Assembly: GCA_030427905.1 (NCBI GenBank)
Contig: JAUICL010000004.1
Location: 215,722-279,721, forward strand
Length of the DNA: 64,000 nt
Direction: 5' to 3'
Source: Bacteroidia bacterium
GTDB lineage: Bacteria; Bacteroidota; Bacteroidia; Flavobacteriales_D; Cryomorphaceae
Shown here one piece after another: positions 5,455 through 14,149 of this stretch. How positions within the stretch are numbered: position 1 is the first letter of the stretch; each line of letters begins with the position of its first letter. The notes below the pieces were generated by a model that saw only the letters and a program-made list of their open reading frames with translations, was not told the DNA's origin and made no database searches. The translations under genes and the position numbers were made by a program.

Positions 5455-6639
5455 ATGAAAAGTTTACCTGCAAGTTTACTTCTCGCCGCACTATCTTTCT
5501 GTGGCGTAAGTGTCTATGGCCAATGCGAGCCTTTCTTCGGAAAATTGTTGATTAATGAAGTCATGCCGGCTAATGACATGACGGCAACTGATCCCGCGGG
5601 TGAATACGACGACTGGGTGGAAATAGTCAATACCACCGATGAACCCATTAACCTAGAAGGCTATTTTTTATCTGACAACCATGGAAATAAGACCAAATAC
5701 GTTTTTCCCGATGTGGAGATCGAAGCCAACGGCTATTTGGTAATTTGGTGTGATAATCAAATTGAGCAAGAAGGACTTCACGCTCCTTTTAATCTCAGTT
5801 CGGCCGGAGAAGAAGTAGGGCTGTATAACCCCGATACCACTTCGGTAGACTTTGTGCGCTACGGCGATATGCCAGACGATATCTCAATTGGTCGCTTTCC
5901 AGATGGTGCCGGTCCGTTCAAGATTTTGATTCCGACCTTTAACGCCGAAAACACCAATAGTGTCAACCCGGGATTGGTAATTAACGAATACCAAGCCGAG
6001 AATGAGACCACAGAACAAGATCAGTGGGGTGGATATGAAGATTGGATCGAGTTGTACAACAATAGCAACTCACCGATCGATCTGGAAGGATATTTTCTGA
6101 GCGATAAAATTGGTGATCCTACGCAGTTTGTTTTTCCTGACACCACAATCGGAGCGCATGACTTCTTAATAATCTGGTGCGACCAAGGGCTCTTCGAGCC
6201 AGGGCTCCACACTTTCTTTAAGCTGGGCGGAAGCGGTGATGATATTATTCTCTCCGATCCAGATACCCTGACAATAGACTATGTGCGCTACATGGAGCAG
6301 ATTCCAGACGATAGTGAAGGAAGGTTTCCAAATGGAGTAGGTCCCATCTCTTGCATGATTCCTACACATGGTATTAGCAATGGAGAAATTAACTCCGTAT
6401 TTGATCGAGAAAATGGAGAACCATTGAAAGTTTGGCCGAATCCAGCCACAACATCCTTTTGGATTGATATTGACCCGAATAAATCCATGTCGAGATTAGA
6501 ACTTTTCGATATGCAAGGTAGGAAGGTGATTGATCGCGTTTTACCTGCCGGATTGAATGAGATATTTATTGATAATCTGCCCGATGGAGTGTATCTTGTT
6601 AGGGCTGAGGAGTATTGGACCAAAATAATCGTGAATTAA
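5455..6639 (+). CDS. T9SS cargo with two lamin-tail domains
   Basis: A 394-residue secreted protein. A signal peptide (about residues 1-22, ending VYGQ) is followed by two lamin-tail (LTD) domains, about residues 28-160 and 175-310. Each has the family pattern L/VINE..., (D/E)DW(V/I)E(I/L)YN, LEGYFLSD and a YLVIWCD / FLIIWCD strand. The C-terminal ~75 residues form a type A T9SS sorting domain (VWPNPATTSF, LFDMQGR, LPDGVYLVR), so the protein is predicted to cross the outer membrane and be attached at the surface or released. It precedes the CotH gene by 62 bp on the same strand, and the two may be cotranscribed. LTDs are non-catalytic binding modules; the ligand is unknown. Confidence 0.9.
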   Translation: MKSLPASLLLAALSFCGVSVYGQCEPFFGKLLINEVMPANDMTATDPAGEYDDWVEIVNTTDEPINLEGYFLSDNHGNKTKYVFPDVEIEANGYLVIWCDNQIEQEGLHAPFNLSSAGEEVGLYNPDTTSVDFVRYGDMPDDISIGRFPDGAGPFKILIPTFNAENTNSVNPGLVINEYQAENETTEQDQWGGYEDWIELYNNSNSPIDLEGYFLSDKIGDPTQFVFPDTTIGAHDFLIIWCDQGLFEPGLHTFFKLGGSGDDIILSDPDTLTIDYVRYMEQIPDDSEGRFPNGVGPISCMIPTHGISNGEINSVFDRENGEPLKVWPNPATTSFWIDIDPNKSMSRLELFDMQGRKVIDRVLPAGLNEIFIDNLPDGVYLVRAEEYWTKIIVN

Positions 6640-6701
6640 AATACAACTTTTGAAGCAGTTGTGCGTCATTTTTGGGAATCCGAAGTAACCACAATACCTG
6701 C

Positions 6702-9700
6702 ATGAAAACCAAGTTTTACCTTCTAGCAATAGTCATTTGCTGGGCGCATATCCTGAACGCCCAAGTTGTAATAAATGAAATCAGCGCCGCCAATTACGAC
6801 GGAGGCTTTACCGATAACTATGGTGAAGAAGAAGACTGGTTTGAACTGTACAACCCAACTGGAGCCGATGTAGATATTAGCGGGTACTACTTTAGCGATG
6901 ATGATACAGACCCTATGAAATGGGAAATCCCAGCTGGGGTTACCGTTCCAGCCAATGGGTACTTGCTTGTATACGCTTCGGGGCGAGGTGAGTTTGCCGC
7001 CGGAAATGTCCACACCGATTTTAAGATTACCCAAGCAAAGCAAGAAGGAGCTGTTTTAGCCGATGCAGCTGGAACGATCATAGACTCTTTCATGCTCGAC
7101 ATTCCTAACCAAGAAGGCCACTCGCGTGGTAGAACAATAGATGGAGCAACGACGTGGGGAATCATGACAACACCAACGCCAGGAGCGTCCAATACAGGGG
7201 TTTTGTTTGGAGAGTATGCCGATCTAGAAATAGAGACTCAACCGGGGTATTACACAGGAAGCGCGTCTGTAACCATCTCGAGTGCCACTCCGGGTGTTGA
7301 GATTAGGTATACTTTGGATGGTTCTGTGCCCACTGGGGCGTCTACCCTTTACACCGGGCCTGTAAATATTACGCAAACAACTACGCTTCGTGCACGTGCT
7401 TTTCATCCAGATGCCGACATCCCCGATAGCTTCATTGAAACCAATACCTATTTCATTGATGTCACGCATACCATTCCCATTATCTGTGTGTCCGGAGACC
7501 AGTTGCAAGTGCTTCTTGATGGAACCCAGATTGACCCAATAGGCCATTTAGAATATTTTGATGCCGATGGAACACTCCTCGCTGAGTGTGGAGGGGATTT
7601 TAATGAGCATGGAAATGACTCTTGGGCCTACCCACAACGAGGAATTGACTACATCACTCAAGATGAGTTTGGTTATGGAAATGAAATAAACTACCCCATT
7701 TTCAGAACCAAAGATCGCGAAGGCTACCAGCGGGTGATTATCAAGGCAGCGGCTAGCGACAACTATCCTTTCGAGAATGGTGGGGCGCATATCCGAGATG
7801 CCTATGTTCAAAGCCTTTCGCAAATCGCAGATCTGCGAATGGATGAGCGTACCTATGAGCCGTGCGTGATGTATTGTAATGGACAGTACTGGGGAGTTTA
7901 TGAAGTGAGAGAAAAGGTAGATGATCTGGATTTTACAGATTACTACTACGATCAAGGATCGGGAAATGTCGATTTCTTGAAAACTTGGGGTGGTACCTGG
8001 GAAGAATATGGCTCGGCTGATGAGTGGGATGATCTGAGAGATTACATTCTCGGAAACGACATGACCGATGCCGCCAATTACGACTACGTAAAAGGGCTTT
8101 TCAATACGGGTAGCTTAATTGATTATTTTACACTCAACTCCTACACCGTATGCTCCGACTGGCTCAACTGGAACACAGCTTGGTGGCGTGGTAAAAATCC
8201 AGATGGCGACAAAAAGAAGTGGCGCTACGTACTCTGGGATATGGATGCCACCTTTGGCCATTACGCCAACTTTACGGGAATTCCAGATCAAACACCCAAT
8301 GCCGATATCTGTGACCCACAACAAATAGGTGACCCAGGAGGGCAGGGGCACGTTCCCATTTGGAACGCGCTCGTAGAAAACGAAGAATTTTTTGCAGACT
8401 ATATCAATCGTTTCTCGGATTTATCTGGATCATACTTCAGCTGTGAGTTTATGATTCAGCATTTGGATAGCCTTGTGGCAAACATTGAGCCCGAGATGCA
8501 GATGCACATAGACCGTTGGGGCGGAACATATGCCGAGTGGGAATCAAACGTGCAAGAAGTCAGAGACTTTATAAATGATCGGTGTGCGGTGATCAATGAT
8601 GGGTTCCTGGATTGTTACGACGAACTCGACGGGCCATATGAAATTACGCTTATGGCTAACCCGCCAGAAGGTGGGCGTATTGACCTGCCTACTATGGAGA
8701 TAGATACATACCCTTTCACAACCACTTATTTTGGTGGGGTGGATGTGCCTCTTGATGCCGATGAGAACGATGGATACACTTTCAGCCACTGGAGTTCAAA
8801 CAACAACACCATCACCCCCGATGCTACGCTCGAAGAGATCGTGATGAACTTTACAGCAAATGATACACTCATTGCTCACTTTATACCAGACGTTACATAT
8901 CAAGTAGTTCTCGATGTCCAGCCTGCGAATACCGGGACAATTACTATCAATGGTTTGGAATACACAAGCTTCCCAGTTACAGTAGATTTGCCAGGCGATA
9001 GCCCAATAGATATTCAGGCTACTGCCATACCGGCTTGGGATTTTGAAAACTGGACATCAACTGTGGCAATGGCTTCTGGAAACTTGGCGGCCACCAATAA
9101 CTTTACCCTGACCGAAGGGGCAACCATCACGGCTAATTTCTATGAAGTGATTTACAATGTTCACTTTGAAGTGAGTCCAGCCGATGTTGGGGCCATTGAT
9201 ATAGATGGCGAAACCATTGATCCACTTCCACAAGAATTGACTCTCGCCGGAAACGTGCCTTTTGCAGTAAGCGCATACCCTATCAGAGAGTTCTACGAAT
9301 TCACCGATTGGAATATCATTTCAGCCAATCCGCTTCCCGATGCCAACACAGCAGATGTGGAACTGAGTTTTGGTAGTTCTGATCTCGTGATTGCCAATTT
9401 TATCGAATTGCCTAACTATCCGCTAGTAGTAGACACAAAGCCGCGAGATGTGGCTCGGATTAAAGTGGAAAGTGAAGTCATTACTGAATTCCCCTTCCAA
9501 AAGAACTATCTAGCCGATGAGCCACTCTTTATCGAAGTATTTGAAAGAGATAAGTGGAAGTTCTCGCATTGGGAAGTTGTATACGGAGCACCAGTTAACT
9601 TCCCTAAGGTTCTAGCCCAAAATTACATCTTGAGCACGTCAACTAAGCTTGTTGCTCACTTTGAAGAGCGAATTAATAATGTGTGGATTCCGACGAGTTT

Positions 9701-9962
9701 CACGCCAAACGAAGACGGAATTAACGATGTCTTGAAAGTGTATTACGAAGAGATCGATCTCGATGATTTCAAATTTATTGTGATGGATCGCTGGGGCAAT
9801 GAAGTTTGGAGTACAACAGACCCCAACGTTGGGTGGAATGGCTCAAATGAAGGTGGTGATTACTATGTTGACCCTGGAGTTTATGCCTACTTCATCAGAT
9901 ACATCGACTCAATCACCAAAAAGATTGTAGAGACTCACGGTCACGTGACGGTGGTTCGCTAG
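6702..9962 (+). CDS. T9SS cargo: lamin-tail, CHB_HEX-like, CotH kinase, beta-repeats
   Basis: A 1086-residue multidomain protein. The start at 6702 is preferred over 6672 because it gives a proper signal peptide ending LNAQ. Domains in order: lamin-tail domain (about 20-150); chitobiase/hexosaminidase C-terminal-like beta domain (about 174-245, with IRYTLDGSVP); CotH-type kinase fold (about 250-600, with GQYWGVYEVREK and the acidic motif WDMDATFG at 512-519); four repeats of about 85 residues ending in (L/I)(I/V)A(H/N)F (about 635-990); and a type B T9SS sorting domain (about 992-1086, with FTPNEDGINDV and DRWGNEVW). CotH proteins are atypical kinases that phosphorylate extracytoplasmic proteins. 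This one should act outside the cell. The VTC and DUF4956 genes follow downstream, a known gene association. Confidence 0.9.
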   Translation: MKTKFYLLAIVICWAHILNAQVVINEISAANYDGGFTDNYGEEEDWFELYNPTGADVDISGYYFSDDDTDPMKWEIPAGVTVPANGYLLVYASGRGEFAAGNVHTDFKITQAKQEGAVLADAAGTIIDSFMLDIPNQEGHSRGRTIDGATTWGIMTTPTPGASNTGVLFGEYADLEIETQPGYYTGSASVTISSATPGVEIRYTLDGSVPTGASTLYTGPVNITQTTTLRARAFHPDADIPDSFIETNTYFIDVTHTIPIICVSGDQLQVLLDGTQIDPIGHLEYFDADGTLLAECGGDFNEHGNDSWAYPQRGIDYITQDEFGYGNEINYPIFRTKDREGYQRVIIKAAASDNYPFENGGAHIRDAYVQSLSQIADLRMDERTYEPCVMYCNGQYWGVYEVREKVDDLDFTDYYYDQGSGNVDFLKTWGGTWEEYGSADEWDDLRDYILGNDMTDAANYDYVKGLFNTGSLIDYFTLNSYTVCSDWLNWNTAWWRGKNPDGDKKKWRYVLWDMDATFGHYANFTGIPDQTPNADICDPQQIGDPGGQGHVPIWNALVENEEFFADYINRFSDLSGSYFSCEFMIQHLDSLVANIEPEMQMHIDRWGGTYAEWESNVQEVRDFINDRCAVINDGFLDCYDELDGPYEITLMANPPEGGRIDLPTMEIDTYPFTTTYFGGVDVPLDADENDGYTFSHWSSNNNTITPDATLEEIVMNFTANDTLIAHFIPDVTYQVVLDVQPANTGTITINGLEYTSFPVTVDLPGDSPIDIQATAIPAWDFENWTSTVAMASGNLAATNNFTLTEGATITANFYEVIYNVHFEVSPADVGAIDIDGETIDPLPQELTLAGNVPFAVSAYPIREFYEFTDWNIISANPLPDANTADVELSFGSSDLVIANFIELPNYPLVVDTKPRDVARIKVESEVITEFPFQKNYLADEPLFIEVFERDKWKFSHWEVVYGAPVNFPKVLAQNYILSTSTKLVAHFEERINNVWIPTSFTPNEDGINDVLKVYYEEIDLDDFKFIVMDRWGNEVWSTTDPNVGWNGSNEGGDYYVDPGVYAYFIRYIDSITKKIVETHGHVTVVR

Positions 9963-9987
9963 AATATTTTATATTCACTCATTATTA

Positions 9988-10017
9988 AGAAATCATTACT
10001 GAACCATGATGATTTCT
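9988..10017. other. Hairpin between the CotH gene and the lipoprotein gene
   Basis: A perfect 9-bp inverted repeat (AGAAATCAT / ATGATTTCT) with a 12-nt loop, 25 bp after the CotH stop. It lacks a T tract. It could attenuate readthrough or protect mRNA ends within the locus. Confidence 0.4.
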
Positions 10018-10044
10018 GTGTTGAAACCAGCAAGATAAGACTGC

Positions 10045-10437
10045 ATGCGAAGATTAATTTGGCTATTTGGGCTGGCTATAGCCACGCTCACCATTTCTTG
10101 TGAAAAAGACCCCGGCGAAGGGGGTAGAGCATCAATTTCTGGGAAAGTATGGGTTGAAGAGTACAATGGGAATTGTACAGAGCTTCGAGGCTCATACTAT
10201 GGAGTTGACGAAGAAGTATACATCATCGCGGGAGACGACCCATCCTATTTTGAACGCGTACGCACTGGGCCCGATGGCACTTTTTGGTTTAGATACCTAC
10301 GTGAAGGAGACTATCGCGTGTATGCCATTTCAGAAAATTGTGTTCCTTTCAGTGGAGATGAAGCAGTTGAAATTGCCGTAGAAATCAAAGAGAAAAAACA
10401 AGAATTCGTTACCGAAGACATTGTCGTTATCAGATGA
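10045..10437 (+). CDS. Lipoprotein with a carboxypeptidase-regulatory-like beta domain
   Basis: A 130-residue protein with a lipobox (LTISC, C19). The mature part, ISGKVWVEEYNG ... GPDGTFWFRYLREGDYRVYA, follows the carboxypeptidase-regulatory-like (CarbopepD_reg/SdrD B-like) beta-sandwich pattern, in which an extracellular domain starts with a G-x-V strand and ends with a G-x-Y-x-(V/L) strand. The stop overlaps the next start (ATGA at 10434-10437), which indicates translational coupling to the downstream genes. It probably sits on the periplasmic side of a membrane. Function is unknown. Confidence 0.75.
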   Translation: MRRLIWLFGLAIATLTISCEKDPGEGGRASISGKVWVEEYNGNCTELRGSYYGVDEEVYIIAGDDPSYFERVRTGPDGTFWFRYLREGDYRVYAISENCVPFSGDEAVEIAVEIKEKKQEFVTEDIVVIR

Positions 10438-11006
10438 TTAGAACCTTTTTCATATCAGCTCTCCTCGTATGTTCCATAACTGTAAATGGGCAGTCAAAAA
10501 AACTACTCAGAACCTACGGCATTCAGTCTATGACTGAGACTACCGTGAAGTATGAGAACGGGGTGGAGATAAGCCGGTACGTTTCAGAAAAAGAGATATT
10601 TGACAAGGATGGCGAATGGATCGAGCAATTCGACTACACCGAAGAAGGAGAGATCAAAACCTACCGATCGCGTGTGTACCACAAAGGCGAAGTGATAGAT
10701 GAAGTAGAAGACAAGCGGATCGTAAAAAACAACGACAAGCCTGAATATTCCAGAACCCAATATACCTTCGACAAGGATGAGCTTAAGAAGGAGACCGATC
10801 TGGATGAAGAAGGCAATGTGGTTCGCGTGAAGACTTATTTCTACAACAATTTTGAAGACGTAAGCGAAGTTACCATCGCCGATGGTGAGCAAAATATTCA
10901 GGAGAAGCTCGTGTATACGTACGATGATCGCGGGCTTAGAATAGAAAAGCAGCGCATCGACTCAGAAGGTGTTTTACTCGAATCAAAGCATTATGCCTAT
11001 GAGTGA
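10434..11006 (+). CDS. Secreted YD-repeat-like protein of unknown function
   Basis: A 190-residue protein with a signal peptide (residues 1-19, ending VNGQ) and a strongly charged mature region of short repeated strands (EEGEIKTYRSRVYH, DEEGNVVRVKTYFYNN, YTYDDRGLRIEKQ). This resembles YD/RHS-type or MORN-like antiparallel repeats, though no family can be named with confidence. It begins inside the stop codon of the preceding lipoprotein gene and its 3' end overlaps the start of the VTC gene, so it is embedded in the coupled operon. Confidence 0.65.
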   Translation: MIRTFFISALLVCSITVNGQSKKLLRTYGIQSMTETTVKYENGVEISRYVSEKEIFDKDGEWIEQFDYTEEGEIKTYRSRVYHKGEVIDEVEDKRIVKNNDKPEYSRTQYTFDKDELKKETDLDEEGNVVRVKTYFYNNFEDVSEVTIADGEQNIQEKLVYTYDDRGLRIEKQRIDSEGVLLESKHYAYE

Positions 11007-11766
11007 AGACGAGCTGCAAAACGGACATAGCAAAATTGTTGGCTCGTTTGACACCATTGGGCTCGAAGAACTTCCAAAAGAAGTTTTGATGGAGCGCGTC
11101 GATCGAAAGTACGCTTTCCATGAATCTGAAATGGTTAATGTTTTAACAGGACTTTCAGAACACTATTATTTGATCAAGGCCGCTGGATCGGTGGTGGCAC
11201 CGTATGAGTCACTCTATCTAGATACCGAAGATTACAACTGTTACTATAGACACCACCGCGGTTTTAAGAACAGGGAGAAAATTAGATTTCGCCATTACCC
11301 CAAAACGGGGACAGCCTTCCTGGAGCACAAGTGGAAGAGCAATAAAGGGCGAACGTCCAAATCGCGTATTCCAATAGAGCCAAGCTTTGAAGTAGGAACA
11401 GTTGGAAAGGAATTTTTAAAACAAAGTCTGGTCAATACACCCTTTGACCGACTCATTCCTACCGTGCAAGTCGATTATCTGAGACTTGGGTTTATCTCCA
11501 AAGATTCAGATGAGCGATTTTCAATAGATTTTAATGTAGAAGGAGAAATGAATGGCCAAAGTGCTAGCTTCGGCGATGTGGCCATTTTAGAAGTAAAACA
11601 AGGGGTTCGTCATACCAGCCCAGTGGTTAGGAAGATGAGAACTTTGAAGATTAACGAAGTATCGATGAGTAAGTATTGTTTGGTGCTGAGCATGTTGAAA
11701 CCTGAGCTCAAGAACCACAATTTTAAAATGGCATTGCGAAGAATTACCAGAATAAACCATGCGTAG
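10999..11766 (+). CDS. VTC-domain polyphosphate polymerase-like protein
   Basis: A 255-residue protein starting at 10999; an ATG two codons upstream is also possible. It carries the VTC (CYTH-like tunnel) signature: VDRKYAF near the N-terminus, a YLDTEDYNCYYRHHRGF strand, the basic pairs REKIRFRHY, the FLEHKWKSNKGRTSKSR motif, and a closing ILEVKQGV acidic strand. These residues line the tunnel that binds nucleotide and growing polyphosphate in VTC enzymes. It has no signal peptide or membrane helix, so it is cytosolic. It overlaps both neighbours by 8 bp and is paired with DUF4956, as in many bacteria. Activity is inferred from family membership only. Confidence 0.85.
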   Translation: MSEDELQNGHSKIVGSFDTIGLEELPKEVLMERVDRKYAFHESEMVNVLTGLSEHYYLIKAAGSVVAPYESLYLDTEDYNCYYRHHRGFKNREKIRFRHYPKTGTAFLEHKWKSNKGRTSKSRIPIEPSFEVGTVGKEFLKQSLVNTPFDRLIPTVQVDYLRLGFISKDSDERFSIDFNVEGEMNGQSASFGDVAILEVKQGVRHTSPVVRKMRTLKINEVSMSKYCLVLSMLKPELKNHNFKMALRRITRINHA

Positions 11767-12502
11767 AAATTTGAACCGATTTGGAATCGCTGCACTAGCT
11801 GCGATCATATGTTTGCTATTTGGAACGGAGTCCTTTGGACAGGCAGCCCTTGCCGCTTTAACTGAGAGCCCAGTAAAAGAGCCCGCTTCGAATGTCGATT
11901 TTTTTAGTTTTCAACTCGATCGCTTCAATGTCGATTTTTTCGTCAGGCTGGCGATTGACCTGCTTTCGATGATCATCTTGATCCGTGGGATTTACTTCAG
12001 AGTGTACCGCCGTATCGATTTCTTCTTCACCTTTTTCATGTTCAATCTCATCATCTTTATTATCACCGTTTTGCTCAATAGCAATTCAGGTTTTAGCATT
12101 GGTGCGGCCTTTGGACTGTTCGCCATCTTCGCTATGCTGCGGTATCGCACAGAAGATATTTCGGCACGAGATATGACCTATCTATTCATGTCCATCACCA
12201 TTGGTTTGATTTCTTCAATCAATATGGGTACGGCTCTTGAAATTCTGGTGATCAATGCCATTATTCTTCTGACGGCGTTTTGTATTGAAGGAAATATTTT
12301 GGTGAAGCAAAGCTTTTCTAAGGTCATCGAATACGAGCGCGTCGATCTCATTAAGCCCGAGTACAAAGCAGAGTTGATCGCTGATCTTAAGGATCGAACA
12401 GGGCTCGCCATCCACAAAGTATACGTGAAGCGCATCGATTTCTTGCGTGATACAGCCCTTCTAAAAGTGTACTATCACAACGTTTCAAACCAGGATGTTT
12501 AG
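11759..12502 (+). CDS. DUF4956 family inner-membrane protein
   Basis: A 247-residue protein with an N-terminal hydrophobic or signal segment (about 10-28) and four to five further membrane segments (about 60-80, 88-106, 112-128, 140-178), then a soluble C-terminal domain (about 185-247) of alternating strands and helices (ADLKDRTGLAIHKVYVKRID). The conserved FAMLRYRTEDI motif after the third helix is characteristic of DUF4956. This family is repeatedly found beside VTC-domain proteins. The start codon lies 8 bp inside the VTC gene. It is likely the membrane partner of the VTC protein; biochemical function is unknown. Confidence 0.85.
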   Translation: MRRNLNRFGIAALAAIICLLFGTESFGQAALAALTESPVKEPASNVDFFSFQLDRFNVDFFVRLAIDLLSMIILIRGIYFRVYRRIDFFFTFFMFNLIIFIITVLLNSNSGFSIGAAFGLFAIFAMLRYRTEDISARDMTYLFMSITIGLISSINMGTALEILVINAIILLTAFCIEGNILVKQSFSKVIEYERVDLIKPEYKAELIADLKDRTGLAIHKVYVKRIDFLRDTALLKVYYHNVSNQDV

Positions 12503-13211
12503 ACGCCATTTACTGGCATTAGCCCTCTTGTTTTTACTTTCCTTGCCTAGCTTTGTCTACAGTCAGGTGGAAGATGATTTTGGGGTATGGACTACTTTTT
12601 CGTTAGATACAGATCTCTCGAAAGACCTGAATGTTTCCATTGATCAAGAGTTTCGTTTGGAAGACAATGCTACCCAATTGGGGCGTGTGTTTACGGATAT
12701 CGGGTTGGACTATGAAGTAGAAAACTGGCTTCGCTTTGGTACCAACTACCGGTTCATCATGGATAGGCGTGGGTCTAGCAATATTTTTGCACACCGGCAC
12801 AGGCTTAGTGTTGAGTCGGTTTTAAGAGCTCGCCACCAGCGCTGGACTGTGGCGTACAGGGCGCGATTTCAATGGGAAGTCAGAGCCCATAATTACGAGC
12901 AGGAATATGGATTTGCTCCCACTTATGATTTGAGAAATCGAATCAAATTGAGCTATCAGTACAACAGGAGATTTGAGCCATATACTTCTTTCGATATTCG
13001 GGTCTCGATACACGATCCCGATGTGCCATACCTTCAAGGTGTTGACCGATTTCGGGTACGGGCTGGGACAGATATCAAACTCTCCAAGCGTCAAGTCCTT
13101 GATCTATACTTTCTCTACAGCGAAGATGTACAAGTCAATTTTCCCGAGCGTAGCTTTATTCTTGGGGTCGCTTATGGATTCGGTACAGGACGCGCTAGGA
13201 TCGGATCTTAA
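12495..13211 (+). CDS. DUF2490 family outer-membrane beta-barrel protein
   Basis: A 238-residue protein with a signal peptide (residues 1-23, ending VYSQ). Throughout the mature part, amphipathic strands alternate (WTTFSLDTDL, LRFGTNYRFIMDRR, WTVAYRARFQWE, LDLYFLYSED) with the aromatic girdle pattern of a small barrel, and the family's early DFGVWTTFSL motif is present. The start overlaps the DUF4956 stop by 8 bp, so it is the last member of the coupled operon. Its stop overlaps the convergent Sua5 stop. Confidence 0.8.
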   Translation: MFRRHLLALALLFLLSLPSFVYSQVEDDFGVWTTFSLDTDLSKDLNVSIDQEFRLEDNATQLGRVFTDIGLDYEVENWLRFGTNYRFIMDRRGSSNIFAHRHRLSVESVLRARHQRWTVAYRARFQWEVRAHNYEQEYGFAPTYDLRNRIKLSYQYNRRFEPYTSFDIRVSIHDPDVPYLQGVDRFRVRAGTDIKLSKRQVLDLYFLYSEDVQVNFPERSFILGVAYGFGTGRARIGS

Positions 13212-14149
13212 TCTTTCCGAGAAGCTCTCTTAAGCTTGTCATTTATTGCCTTGCCTAACCCTGTGTTCGGCATCCATTCAGACAAAATCAAGTCATAGTT
13301 TCCCCGATCCAGTGCGCGAAGCGCCGCGAAAAGATTTCGAGCTGCTTCTTCCAAATTTCCAGATGGTGATAAGGCGATACCTTCCTTGCCATAGGTGGAT
13401 TGAAAACCGAGCACAGCGATGCGCTTTTCGGTATACTTTTCAATCAGTTGAGAAATGTCTCCTACTACTAATTCTGCCGTTGGAGCATAGTGATTTTCTA
13501 ACATGCCCGGCGCCTTGGGGTTCGAGCTGCTTTCTTCTCTCACAGGAATTTCACCCAATACTTTGAAAATCGCTTCATTGGGTATTCCACCTTGACGTAA
13601 AATTTCATAACTCGAATGGCTCATATCAACAATCGTCGATTCAAGTCCAACCTGACATGGCCCGCCATCTAGGATGAAATCAACTTGGTCGCCAAGCTGA
13701 TCAGCCACGTGTTGAGCTGTGGTAGGACTCACGTAGCCGAAGGGATTGGCACTGGGAGCGGCAAGGGGAAATTCGAGTGACTCGAGCAGCTTTTGAGTGA
13801 GTTTGTGGTTTGGCATTCTAACACCCACTGTATCGAGTCCAGATGTCACAATATCGGGTACGATGGCCGTTTTTTTCAAGATAATTGTGAGCGGGCCCGG
13901 CCAAAACGCCGCGGCCAGATTCTTGGCGTCTTCATGGAATTCGGCACTGAGTTCAGCCTGGGCAATGGACCCAATATGCAGGATCAAAGGGTCGTAATTG
14001 GGTCTGTTCTTGGCTTTAAAGATTTTCGCCACCGCCGACGATTCCAGCCCGTTTGCTGCCAAACCGTATACCGTTTCCGTAGGTATAGCTACCAAACCAC
14101 CGCTAATCAAAGCCTGCCTGGCTCTTTTGATATCTTCGCCTAGAATCAT
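13208..14149 (-). CDS. tsaC: L-threonylcarbamoyladenylate synthase (Sua5 type)
   Basis: A 313-residue protein with an N-terminal YrdC domain (about 1-195; IPTETVYGLA, KAKNRPNYDPL, FWPGPLTIIL, PSANPFGYVSPT) and a C-terminal Sua5 domain (about 215-313; APGMLENHYAP linker), so it is the long Sua5 form rather than the short TsaC form. It makes threonylcarbamoyl-AMP from threonine, bicarbonate and ATP for the t6A modification of ANN-decoding tRNAs. Its stop codon (TAA on the minus strand, 13208-13210) overlaps the DUF2490 stop on the plus strand. No terminator lies between the two convergent genes. Confidence 0.93.
   Translation of the reverse strand: MILGEDIKRARQALISGGLVAIPTETVYGLAANGLESSAVAKIFKAKNRPNYDPLILHIGSIAQAELSAEFHEDAKNLAAAFWPGPLTIILKKTAIVPDIVTSGLDTVGVRMPNHKLTQKLLESLEFPLAAPSANPFGYVSPTTAQHVADQLGDQVDFILDGGPCQVGLESTIVDMSHSSYEILRQGGIPNEAIFKVLGEIPVREESSSNPKAPGMLENHYAPTAELVVGDISQLIEKYTEKRIAVLGFQSTYGKEGIALSPSGNLEEAARNLFAALRALDRGNYDLILSEWMPNTGLGKAINDKLKRASRKD

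Follow-up and report, generated by a model that had tools for sequence, protein, structure and literature searches.

We describe a gene cassette at 5455-13211 of a 64,000-nucleotide stretch of the genome of a Bacteroidia bacterium (contig JAUICL010000004.1, positions 215,722 to 279,721; hereafter the window), in which a VTC-domain protein, a DUF4956 membrane protein, a DUF2490 barrel and a secreted protein with a CotH kinase domain are encoded together. Comparison of genomes supports it well as a real, recurrent cassette that spans the cell envelope, and the predicted location of each part is likewise well supported. We read the parts as one envelope-spanning phosphate line, in which a split VTC-like polyphosphate synthase and translocase is combined with an outer-membrane exit and an extracytoplasmic CotH, and we give this reading an even chance of being correct. 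The cytosolic VTC protein would polymerise phosphate from ATP, as its homology and retained residues suggest, and would hand the chain to DUF4956 to be carried across the inner membrane; together they would be a two-protein bacterial equivalent of yeast's VTC complex. The DUF2490 barrel, or a barrel of the OprO/OprP type in some Gammaproteobacteria, may then pass the product through the outer membrane, with a lipoprotein and a YD protein as probable periplasmic or outer-membrane accessories. CotH is predicted from its sequence to be a kinase-fold enzyme outside the cytosol, exported through the type IX secretion system (T9SS) in the window and, in other carriers, as a lipoprotein or Sec cargo; it would be served by the phosphate line, and might use the exported phosphate. 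The product, the direction of transport and the phosphate donor of CotH we infer.

The initial annotation of this locus had listed seven same-strand genes, the last five overlapping by 4-8 bp. Reading the sequence directly gave the same picture: seven genes on the + strand, all with open reading frames (ORFs), and overlaps of 4 bp (10434/10437), 8 bp (10999/11006), 8 bp (11759/11766) and 8 bp (12495/12502).

5455..6639, + strand: secreted lamin-tail protein; two lamin-tail domain (LTD) stretches and Por_Secre_tail/TIGR04183, a T9SS type A sorting tail
6702..9962, + strand: secreted CotH protein; signal peptide by eye, LTD, CHB_HEX_C_1, CotH, Flg_new_2 (InlB-like repeats) and CHU_C/TIGR04131, a T9SS type B tail
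7722..8588, + strand: CotH kinase domain; modelled fold like that of B. cereus CotH (5JD9/5JDA), codons of the catalytic Asp pair at 8157-8159 and 8238-8240
10045..10437, + strand: cassette lipoprotein (LIPO family, about 130 residues); lipobox LTISC by eye, CarboxypepD_reg match of 19.5 bits, below the cut-off of 32.3
10434..11006, + strand: exported YD/RHS-like repeat protein (YD family); signal peptide by eye, family match below cut-off
10999..11766, + strand: VTC-domain protein, a predicted triphosphate tunnel enzyme; PF09359 at 92.2 bits against a cut-off of 23, no signal peptide by eye
11759..12502, + strand: DUF4956 membrane protein; 169 bits, five predicted helices at 58-177 followed by a C-terminal beta-alpha-beta-beta domain
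12495..13211, + strand: DUF2490 predicted outer-membrane beta-barrel; PF10677 at 68.3 bits against a cut-off of 29.8

Families in the window were called over the curated cut-offs of Pfam and NCBIfam, and VTC, DUF4956, DUF2490, CotH and the two T9SS cargoes all passed under the names first given to them. The sorting tails scored 36.2 bits for TIGR04183 (cut-off 23) and 36.2 bits for TIGR04131 (cut-off 35), and the T9SS translocon protein SprA is encoded in the host genome. The lipoprotein and the periplasmic protein fared less evenly: their lipobox and signal peptide are visible by eye, but their family matches stay below threshold. The CotH gene, whose ORF is listed from TTG 6672, preferably starts at ATG 6702, and the VTC gene starts at ATG 10999. 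The gaps of 62 nt upstream of the CotH gene and of 82 nt between it and the lipoprotein gene are short, without overlap. Four complete cassettes from the window's own family (loci L073, L087, L098 and L108) keep the 5455-6639 protein upstream of CotH. The host genome of 3.8 Mb has four CotH matches and one each for VTC and DUF4956; the cassette thus holds one of its four CotHs.

We searched for the cassette in 100 genomes of the same order, the window's own genome included and its locus counted. Stretches of up to 20 kb around VTC matches gave 89 regions. Their genes were called with a simple longest-ORF script, which missed the VTC of L069 and L120 and so left 87 loci, and were assigned with hidden Markov models (HMMs) that were seeded with genes of the window and its genome, iterated on the loci and are distinct from those of Pfam. 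Matches to VTC occurred in 85 of the genomes, to DUF4956 in 92, to CotH in 97 (509 matches) and to DUF2490 in 98. DUF4956 lay within 500 bp of VTC at 84 of the 87 loci, with overlapping ends in 55 of these 84; DUF2490 and the lipoprotein were found within 2.5 kb of VTC at 17 and 11 loci, respectively, and the YD protein within 1.5 kb at six. CotH was present on the same strand within 5 kb of VTC at 13 of the 87 loci, against 0.75 expected from 509 CotHs in 296 Mb, an enrichment of about 17-fold. Where at least 4 kb were available on both sides of VTC (67 assessable loci), CotH occurred at 10, namely at 7 of 12 loci with DUF2490 and 3 of 55 without it. By the test that the initial annotation had set for its single-system idea, CotH thus accompanies the VTC-DUF4956 pair at a minority of loci in the order, but far above chance.

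The cassette is not confined to this order. We scanned species genomes with a cassette-type DUF4956 as seed, a design that over-represents cassettes, and obtained at least 80 loci, of which 75 VTC loci were counted. Among the matches listed, the order CotH-lipoprotein-YD-VTC-DUF4956-DUF2490 appeared, whole or in part, in records named Cytophagales, Chitinophagales, Bacteroidales, Flavobacteriales and unclassified Bacteroidota; DUF4956 stood within 500 bp of VTC at 74 of the 75 (overlapping ends in 55 of 74), CotH on the same strand within 5 kb at 37, DUF2490 at 55, the lipoprotein (within 2.5 kb) at 31 and the YD protein (within 1.5 kb) at 30. CotH and VTC are separated by -11 to 9 bp in L136, L137, L141, L173, L178, L181, L188, L189, L199 and L207, and CotH-bearing versions occur in named isolates of Runella (L136, L137), Larkinella (L141), Emticicia (L186) and Colwellia (L202). 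Sampling the phylum evenly gave VTC in 29 of 148 genomes; DUF4956 lay within 500 bp at 29 of 31 VTC loci, 15 of these 29 with overlapping ends, and CotH occurred at 7 of the 31 (6 of 26 assessable), three loci being common to this sample and the relatives' set. Three of 14 control genomes matched both VTC and DUF4956, and no other matched either; CotH matches came from two of the three and from B. subtilis. Gammaproteobacteria seldom have VTC (6 of 185 genomes, the sample centre included); among them, L247 shows the order DUF4956-CotH-VTC. The grouping of these genes into one set, as in the initial annotation, is supported by the near-constant VTC-DUF4956 pair, the excess of CotH beside it and this recurrence across Bacteroidota. 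Separately, two records titled as metagenome-assembled genomes of Bifidobacterium breve (L172) and Sphingomonadales (L188) carry Bacteroidota-type cassettes on contigs that are probably mis-binned.

The VTC family profile matched the Vtc4, Vtc2 and Vtc3 structures in the PDB (Vtc4 3g3q, E 2.9e-13). Residues K200, R264, R266, K281, R361 and R373 of Vtc4, which we take to be those of its tunnel, align with K38, R97, R99, K112, R163 and R174 of the window VTC family, counted along 8i6v_E with residue 1 at codon 10996; the alignment stops short of Vtc4 E426. All six counterparts are invariant or nearly so in the 28 VTC rows of alignment A1; like it, the other alignments used subsets (A2, 28 rows; DUF4956, 61 of 76 rows plus the window). 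Yeast Vtc4 makes polyphosphate in the cytosol and feeds it into a membrane channel, synthesis being coupled to translocation, and the solved structure is that of the R264A/R266A/E426N variant (PMC9911596). In fission yeast, the active-site double Arg change R262A,R264A of Vtc4 eliminates polyphosphate (PMC9938405). With these residues kept, we infer that the VTC protein is a polyphosphate polymerase. Pfam searches at E up to 1 found no SPX or transmembrane domain in the window VTC protein, returning VTC and a chance BspA_v match, and no Vtc1-like match in the DUF4956 protein, returning DUF4956 only. DUF4956 (model pLDDT 83.6, pTM 0.70), whose helices carry a conserved Arg pair, R128/R130, is our guess for the translocase because it nearly always stands beside VTC, often with overlapping ends.

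DUF4956 also occurs without adjoining VTC in eight genomes (L124-L131), in seven of which the VTC search found none genome-wide. The T9SS gene sprA adjoins the VTC-DUF4956 pair or is close to it at L048, L060 and L066 (by Pfam for L066, by cluster for the others).

The outer-membrane family DUF2490 is listed as TC 1.B.81, a putative porin of function not established (PMC4827864). Some marine bacteria have the cassette in a related form. A Porin_O_P protein takes the place of DUF2490 after DUF4956 in Colwellia (L202), Litorirhabdus (L189), Psychrosphaera (L203) and two records of Haliea (L199, L207); among the matches listed, these are five of the six gammaproteobacterial scan loci, and in four of the five, L203 being the exception, CotH precedes VTC. 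The sampled gammaproteobacterial locus L248 likewise has the order VTC-DUF4956-Porin_O_P. Pfam identified Porin_O_P in L189, L202 and L203, whereas L199, L207 and L248 were recognised with a local HMM trained on the five scan porins; a weak local match in L152, beside DUF2490 and far below the others, was excluded from the count. In the PDB, a profile of the five porins had no matches other than Porin O (E 5.6e-40) and Porin P (E 3.1e-38), and titles in the reference list of PMC5877670 call OprO pyrophosphate- or polyphosphate-selective.

Barrel and CotH also tend to occur together. Pooling all samples, the main VTC lineage (127 assessable of 157 rows) had 45 loci with CotH and barrel, two with CotH but no barrel, 20 with a barrel but no CotH and 60 with neither (raw Fisher 3e-16, with related rows and pooled samples); one of the two barrel-less loci, L193, lies on a 3.5-kb contig. 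Net charge is slightly more positive in 78 cassette DUF2490 proteins than in 20 from outside cassettes (4.2 vs 2.9 per 100 residues, p 0.03). At L132, L133 and L134, DUF2490 is followed by one or two CotH genes and VTC is not nearby, which suggests that the barrel-CotH pair can stand alone.

The CotH domain of the window (PF08757, 115.4 bits against a cut-off of 23.8) gave a model of pLDDT 78.5 and pTM 0.83 that matched B. cereus CotH 5JD9 by Foldseek (E 1.5e-9) and by VIA (Z 28.2, root-mean-square deviation 2.8 over 300 residues), and the CotH profile aligned to 5JD9 with E 1.5e-43; single-sequence PDB searches with CotH and with VTC had no matches, and the profile searches did match. In an alignment of the window with 36 of the 37 listed CotH rows, omitting L171 as a near-duplicate of L168, the window keeps Glu120, Asp202, Asn207 and Asp229, conserved in 33, 35, 32 and 34 of 37 rows (numbering of 7554-8627). 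Asp202 and Asp229 are the counterparts of B. subtilis CotH D228 and D251, changes of which inactivate that enzyme (PMC7821199); the spacing of the two is 27 residues in the window and 23 in 5JD9, as for D228/D251.

Most of these CotHs look built for export. A crude hydropathy scan of 56 cassette CotHs (ORFs that lie off contig ends and match the domain over a long stretch) gave a hydrophobic N-terminus for 52, including proteins from Gammaproteobacteria, and the four without (L109, L151, L154, L202) look mis-started or cut. The initial annotation had taken a CotH outside the cytosol for a special adaptation of Bacteroidota, a view that these counts do not support. Nor is T9SS the only route: of the 50 among these 56 CotHs that entered the tail scan, 28 carry a type A and four a type B tail, and 18 carry neither, provided none matches both. 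A crude pattern found a lipobox in 13 of the 56, some of them among the tail-less proteins. In a FastTree tree of 99 rows (47 cassette, 51 other), cassette CotHs fell into separate branches with 14 label changes, at least nine of them forced by starred branches; on the VTC-DUF4956 tree, CotH presence changes 26 times, at least 20 of them forced. These trees, which came with long-branch warnings, we read as repeated recruitment, exchange or loss of CotH next to the VTC-DUF4956 pair, a pattern that would argue for a functional link.

Several observations weigh against a single phosphate line, and the first concerns CotH itself. The conserved Lys column that follows the glycine loop, K in 26 of 37 rows, reads Gln then Arg in the window, although the alignment may be off by one. 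Of the kinase residues that the initial annotation had asked about, both catalytic Asp and the conserved Asn are thus present and the Lys is in doubt. The window CotH might accordingly be a pseudokinase, or an adhesin with a T9SS tail that is kept for binding through its lamin-tail, chitobiase-like and InlB-like domains. Close relatives share the same QR, and several accessory domains are indeed adhesion-like; yet the retention of both catalytic Asp, the Asn and the conserved Glu, together with a fold that matches B. cereus CotH at Z 28, leaves us to regard this explanation as quite improbable.

The barrel and the membrane partner supply further counter-evidence. The Porin_O_P slot points towards passage of small anions or polyphosphate but is no proof of it, because the level of one member of this Pfam family is unresponsive to phosphate and the OprP eyelet and binding residues named in the same source (PMC5877670) are, by eye, only partly kept in L199/L207. 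A charge argument for a polyanion channel failed: the window DUF2490 has a net charge of 0, and nine Porin_O_P-type proteins average -2.3. On phylogenetically independent pairs, the link between barrel and CotH was not significant (4.2 same, 0.1 opposite, 15.7 no difference; median p 0.125), the trend being one-sided. The sixth gammaproteobacterial scan locus, Arenicella L205, has VTC-DUF4956 with neither Porin_O_P nor CotH, and a second VTC-DUF4956 lineage (type II, assigned from the FastTree tree of the pair; 21 assessable of 27 rows) has no barrel at all, with CotH at six loci and none at 15. For DUF4956 no solved relative emerged: profile searches found none, the best Foldseek E was 0.22, and the best VIA Z of 7.1 is within the noise quoted for helical models. 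In three sampled Gammaproteobacteria the genes are dispersed, with CotH, DUF4956 and VTC on one strand but kilobases apart in L246, and VTC and DUF4956 kilobases apart with no CotH in the fetched stretch in L245 and L249. The host genome, moreover, encodes a PP_kinase-family polyphosphate kinase as well. As a side observation on the second lineage, a protein of about 350-370 residues often stands directly upstream of its VTC (L035-L040, L215, L216, L219-L223, L225-L227); those of L035-L040 cluster together, the rest are alike in size only, and the representative, L038, has no Pfam match.

A further counterpoint is that 57 of the 67 assessable relatives' loci have no same-strand CotH within 5 kb, which rules out that CotH and the VTC-DUF4956 pair always go together. 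At about one third of the relatives' loci, the pair sits between pyruvate dehydrogenase (PDH) E2/E1-cytidine deaminase and ispF-porV-porU, mostly without CotH; this housekeeping block was recognised from neighbour clusters of 33, 32, 30, 21, 32 and 35 members, with Pfam names from one representative each. Because so many pairs lie there, the pair should have a role without CotH. It could be a self-standing inner-membrane module of phosphate or nucleotide homeostasis, to which CotH, barrel and surface proteins are frequent but functionally separate neighbours. Such a module would fit the presence of VTC and DUF4956 in most relatives with CotH seldom nearby, the conserved block, the inorganic pyrophosphatase that follows the pair in two genera and the control genome of Bacteroides ihuae, which matches VTC, DUF4956 and DUF2490 with no CotH match. 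The roughly 17-fold enrichment of CotH, the adjoining of VTC by CotHs of separate branches, the overlapping or near-zero spacing at several loci and the occurrence of the same triad in Gram-positive pel loci (PMC7112168) speak for more than chance proximity, and we consider the self-standing pair an unlikely explanation. CotH-bearing cassettes also occur inside the PDH-porV block, recognised by cluster in L062 and L053 and from nothing but gene size and strand in L168 and L171. The block may once have held the full cassette, with CotH and its companions lost in many lineages of the order.

The pyrophosphatase (PF00719, representative L102) follows VTC-DUF4956 in genera g26 and g30 of one family (L085, L102, L110-L112, L115-L117). 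Around the window cassette, the next gene downstream (13208-14149) is on the opposite strand, and scans for promoters and terminators at the locus gave fewer matches than in shuffles. A stretch of about 930 nt upstream of the cassette is without a convincing gene; in and before it sit two direct repeats, one of 41 nt and 90% (4495-4535/5335-5375), which copies the end of the DUF6340 gene, and one of 44 nt and 86% (4929-4972/5259-5302).

An association of VTC, DUF4956 and CotH in other bacteria, which the initial annotation had mentioned, is indeed on record: genes for CotH, a polyphosphate polymerase and DUF4956 accompany the pel loci of Gram-positive bacteria as accessories, and in streptococci, clostridia and bifidobacteria the three directly adjoin the exopolysaccharide operon pel (PMC7112168). 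VTC and CotH genes are close together in a C. perfringens locus (PMC2879425), and B. thetaiotaomicron BT3498-99 are neighbouring DUF4956 and DUF2490 in a transcriptome table (PMC10434189). The contiguity with pel raises the possibility that the cassette modifies an exported polysaccharide or matrix, VTC/DUF4956 making an activated phosphate with which a surface polymer is decorated and CotH acting as the transferase, with free polyphosphate never exported. No polysaccharide synthase was noticed among those recurring neighbours that were assigned to families, many others being unassigned, and the Porin_O_P slot points to small anions or polyphosphate; we hold this alternative to be rather unlikely.

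Within the phosphate line, a more specific version is doubtful in our judgement: surface phosphorylation might be self-fuelled, polyphosphate from VTC-DUF4956 being pushed through the barrel to serve, directly or after conversion, as donor for the secreted CotH kinase. If true, this would explain how a kinase can act extracellularly despite the scarcity of ATP there. The cassette ties a predicted polymerase, its membrane partner, an outer-membrane exit and a secreted kinase together, and named isolates carry CotH-bearing versions; so compact and widespread a cassette makes both the donor supply of extracellular bacterial kinases and the role of bacterial VTC-domain proteins testable questions.

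In the literature searched we found no description of the Gram-negative cassette. Since the triad has already been published for Gram-positive pel loci (PMC7112168), where the same three families stand side by side, the cassette is a Gram-negative variant of that triad. Unlike those loci, whose hosts have no outer membrane, it includes a DUF2490 or Porin_O_P barrel, a lipoprotein and a YD protein, often has T9SS tails on CotH, and shows no pel operon. Like the yeast VTC complex, it has a VTC catalytic domain with the polymerase residues and a membrane partner that nearly always adjoins; in contrast to that complex, it has no SPX domain and pairs VTC with DUF4956, a distinct membrane protein from a different family. 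The CotH domain shares its kinase-like fold and both catalytic Asp with the Bacillus CotH spore-coat kinase (5JD9/5JDA), whose family is known as extracytoplasmic kinases, but in the window it forms part of a large T9SS cargo that also has lamin-tail and InlB-like domains, and the conserved Lys is not clearly kept. Finally, some gammaproteobacterial cassettes resemble the OprO/OprP phosphate porins in carrying Porin_O_P in the barrel slot, whereas the barrel of the window belongs to the DUF2490 family.

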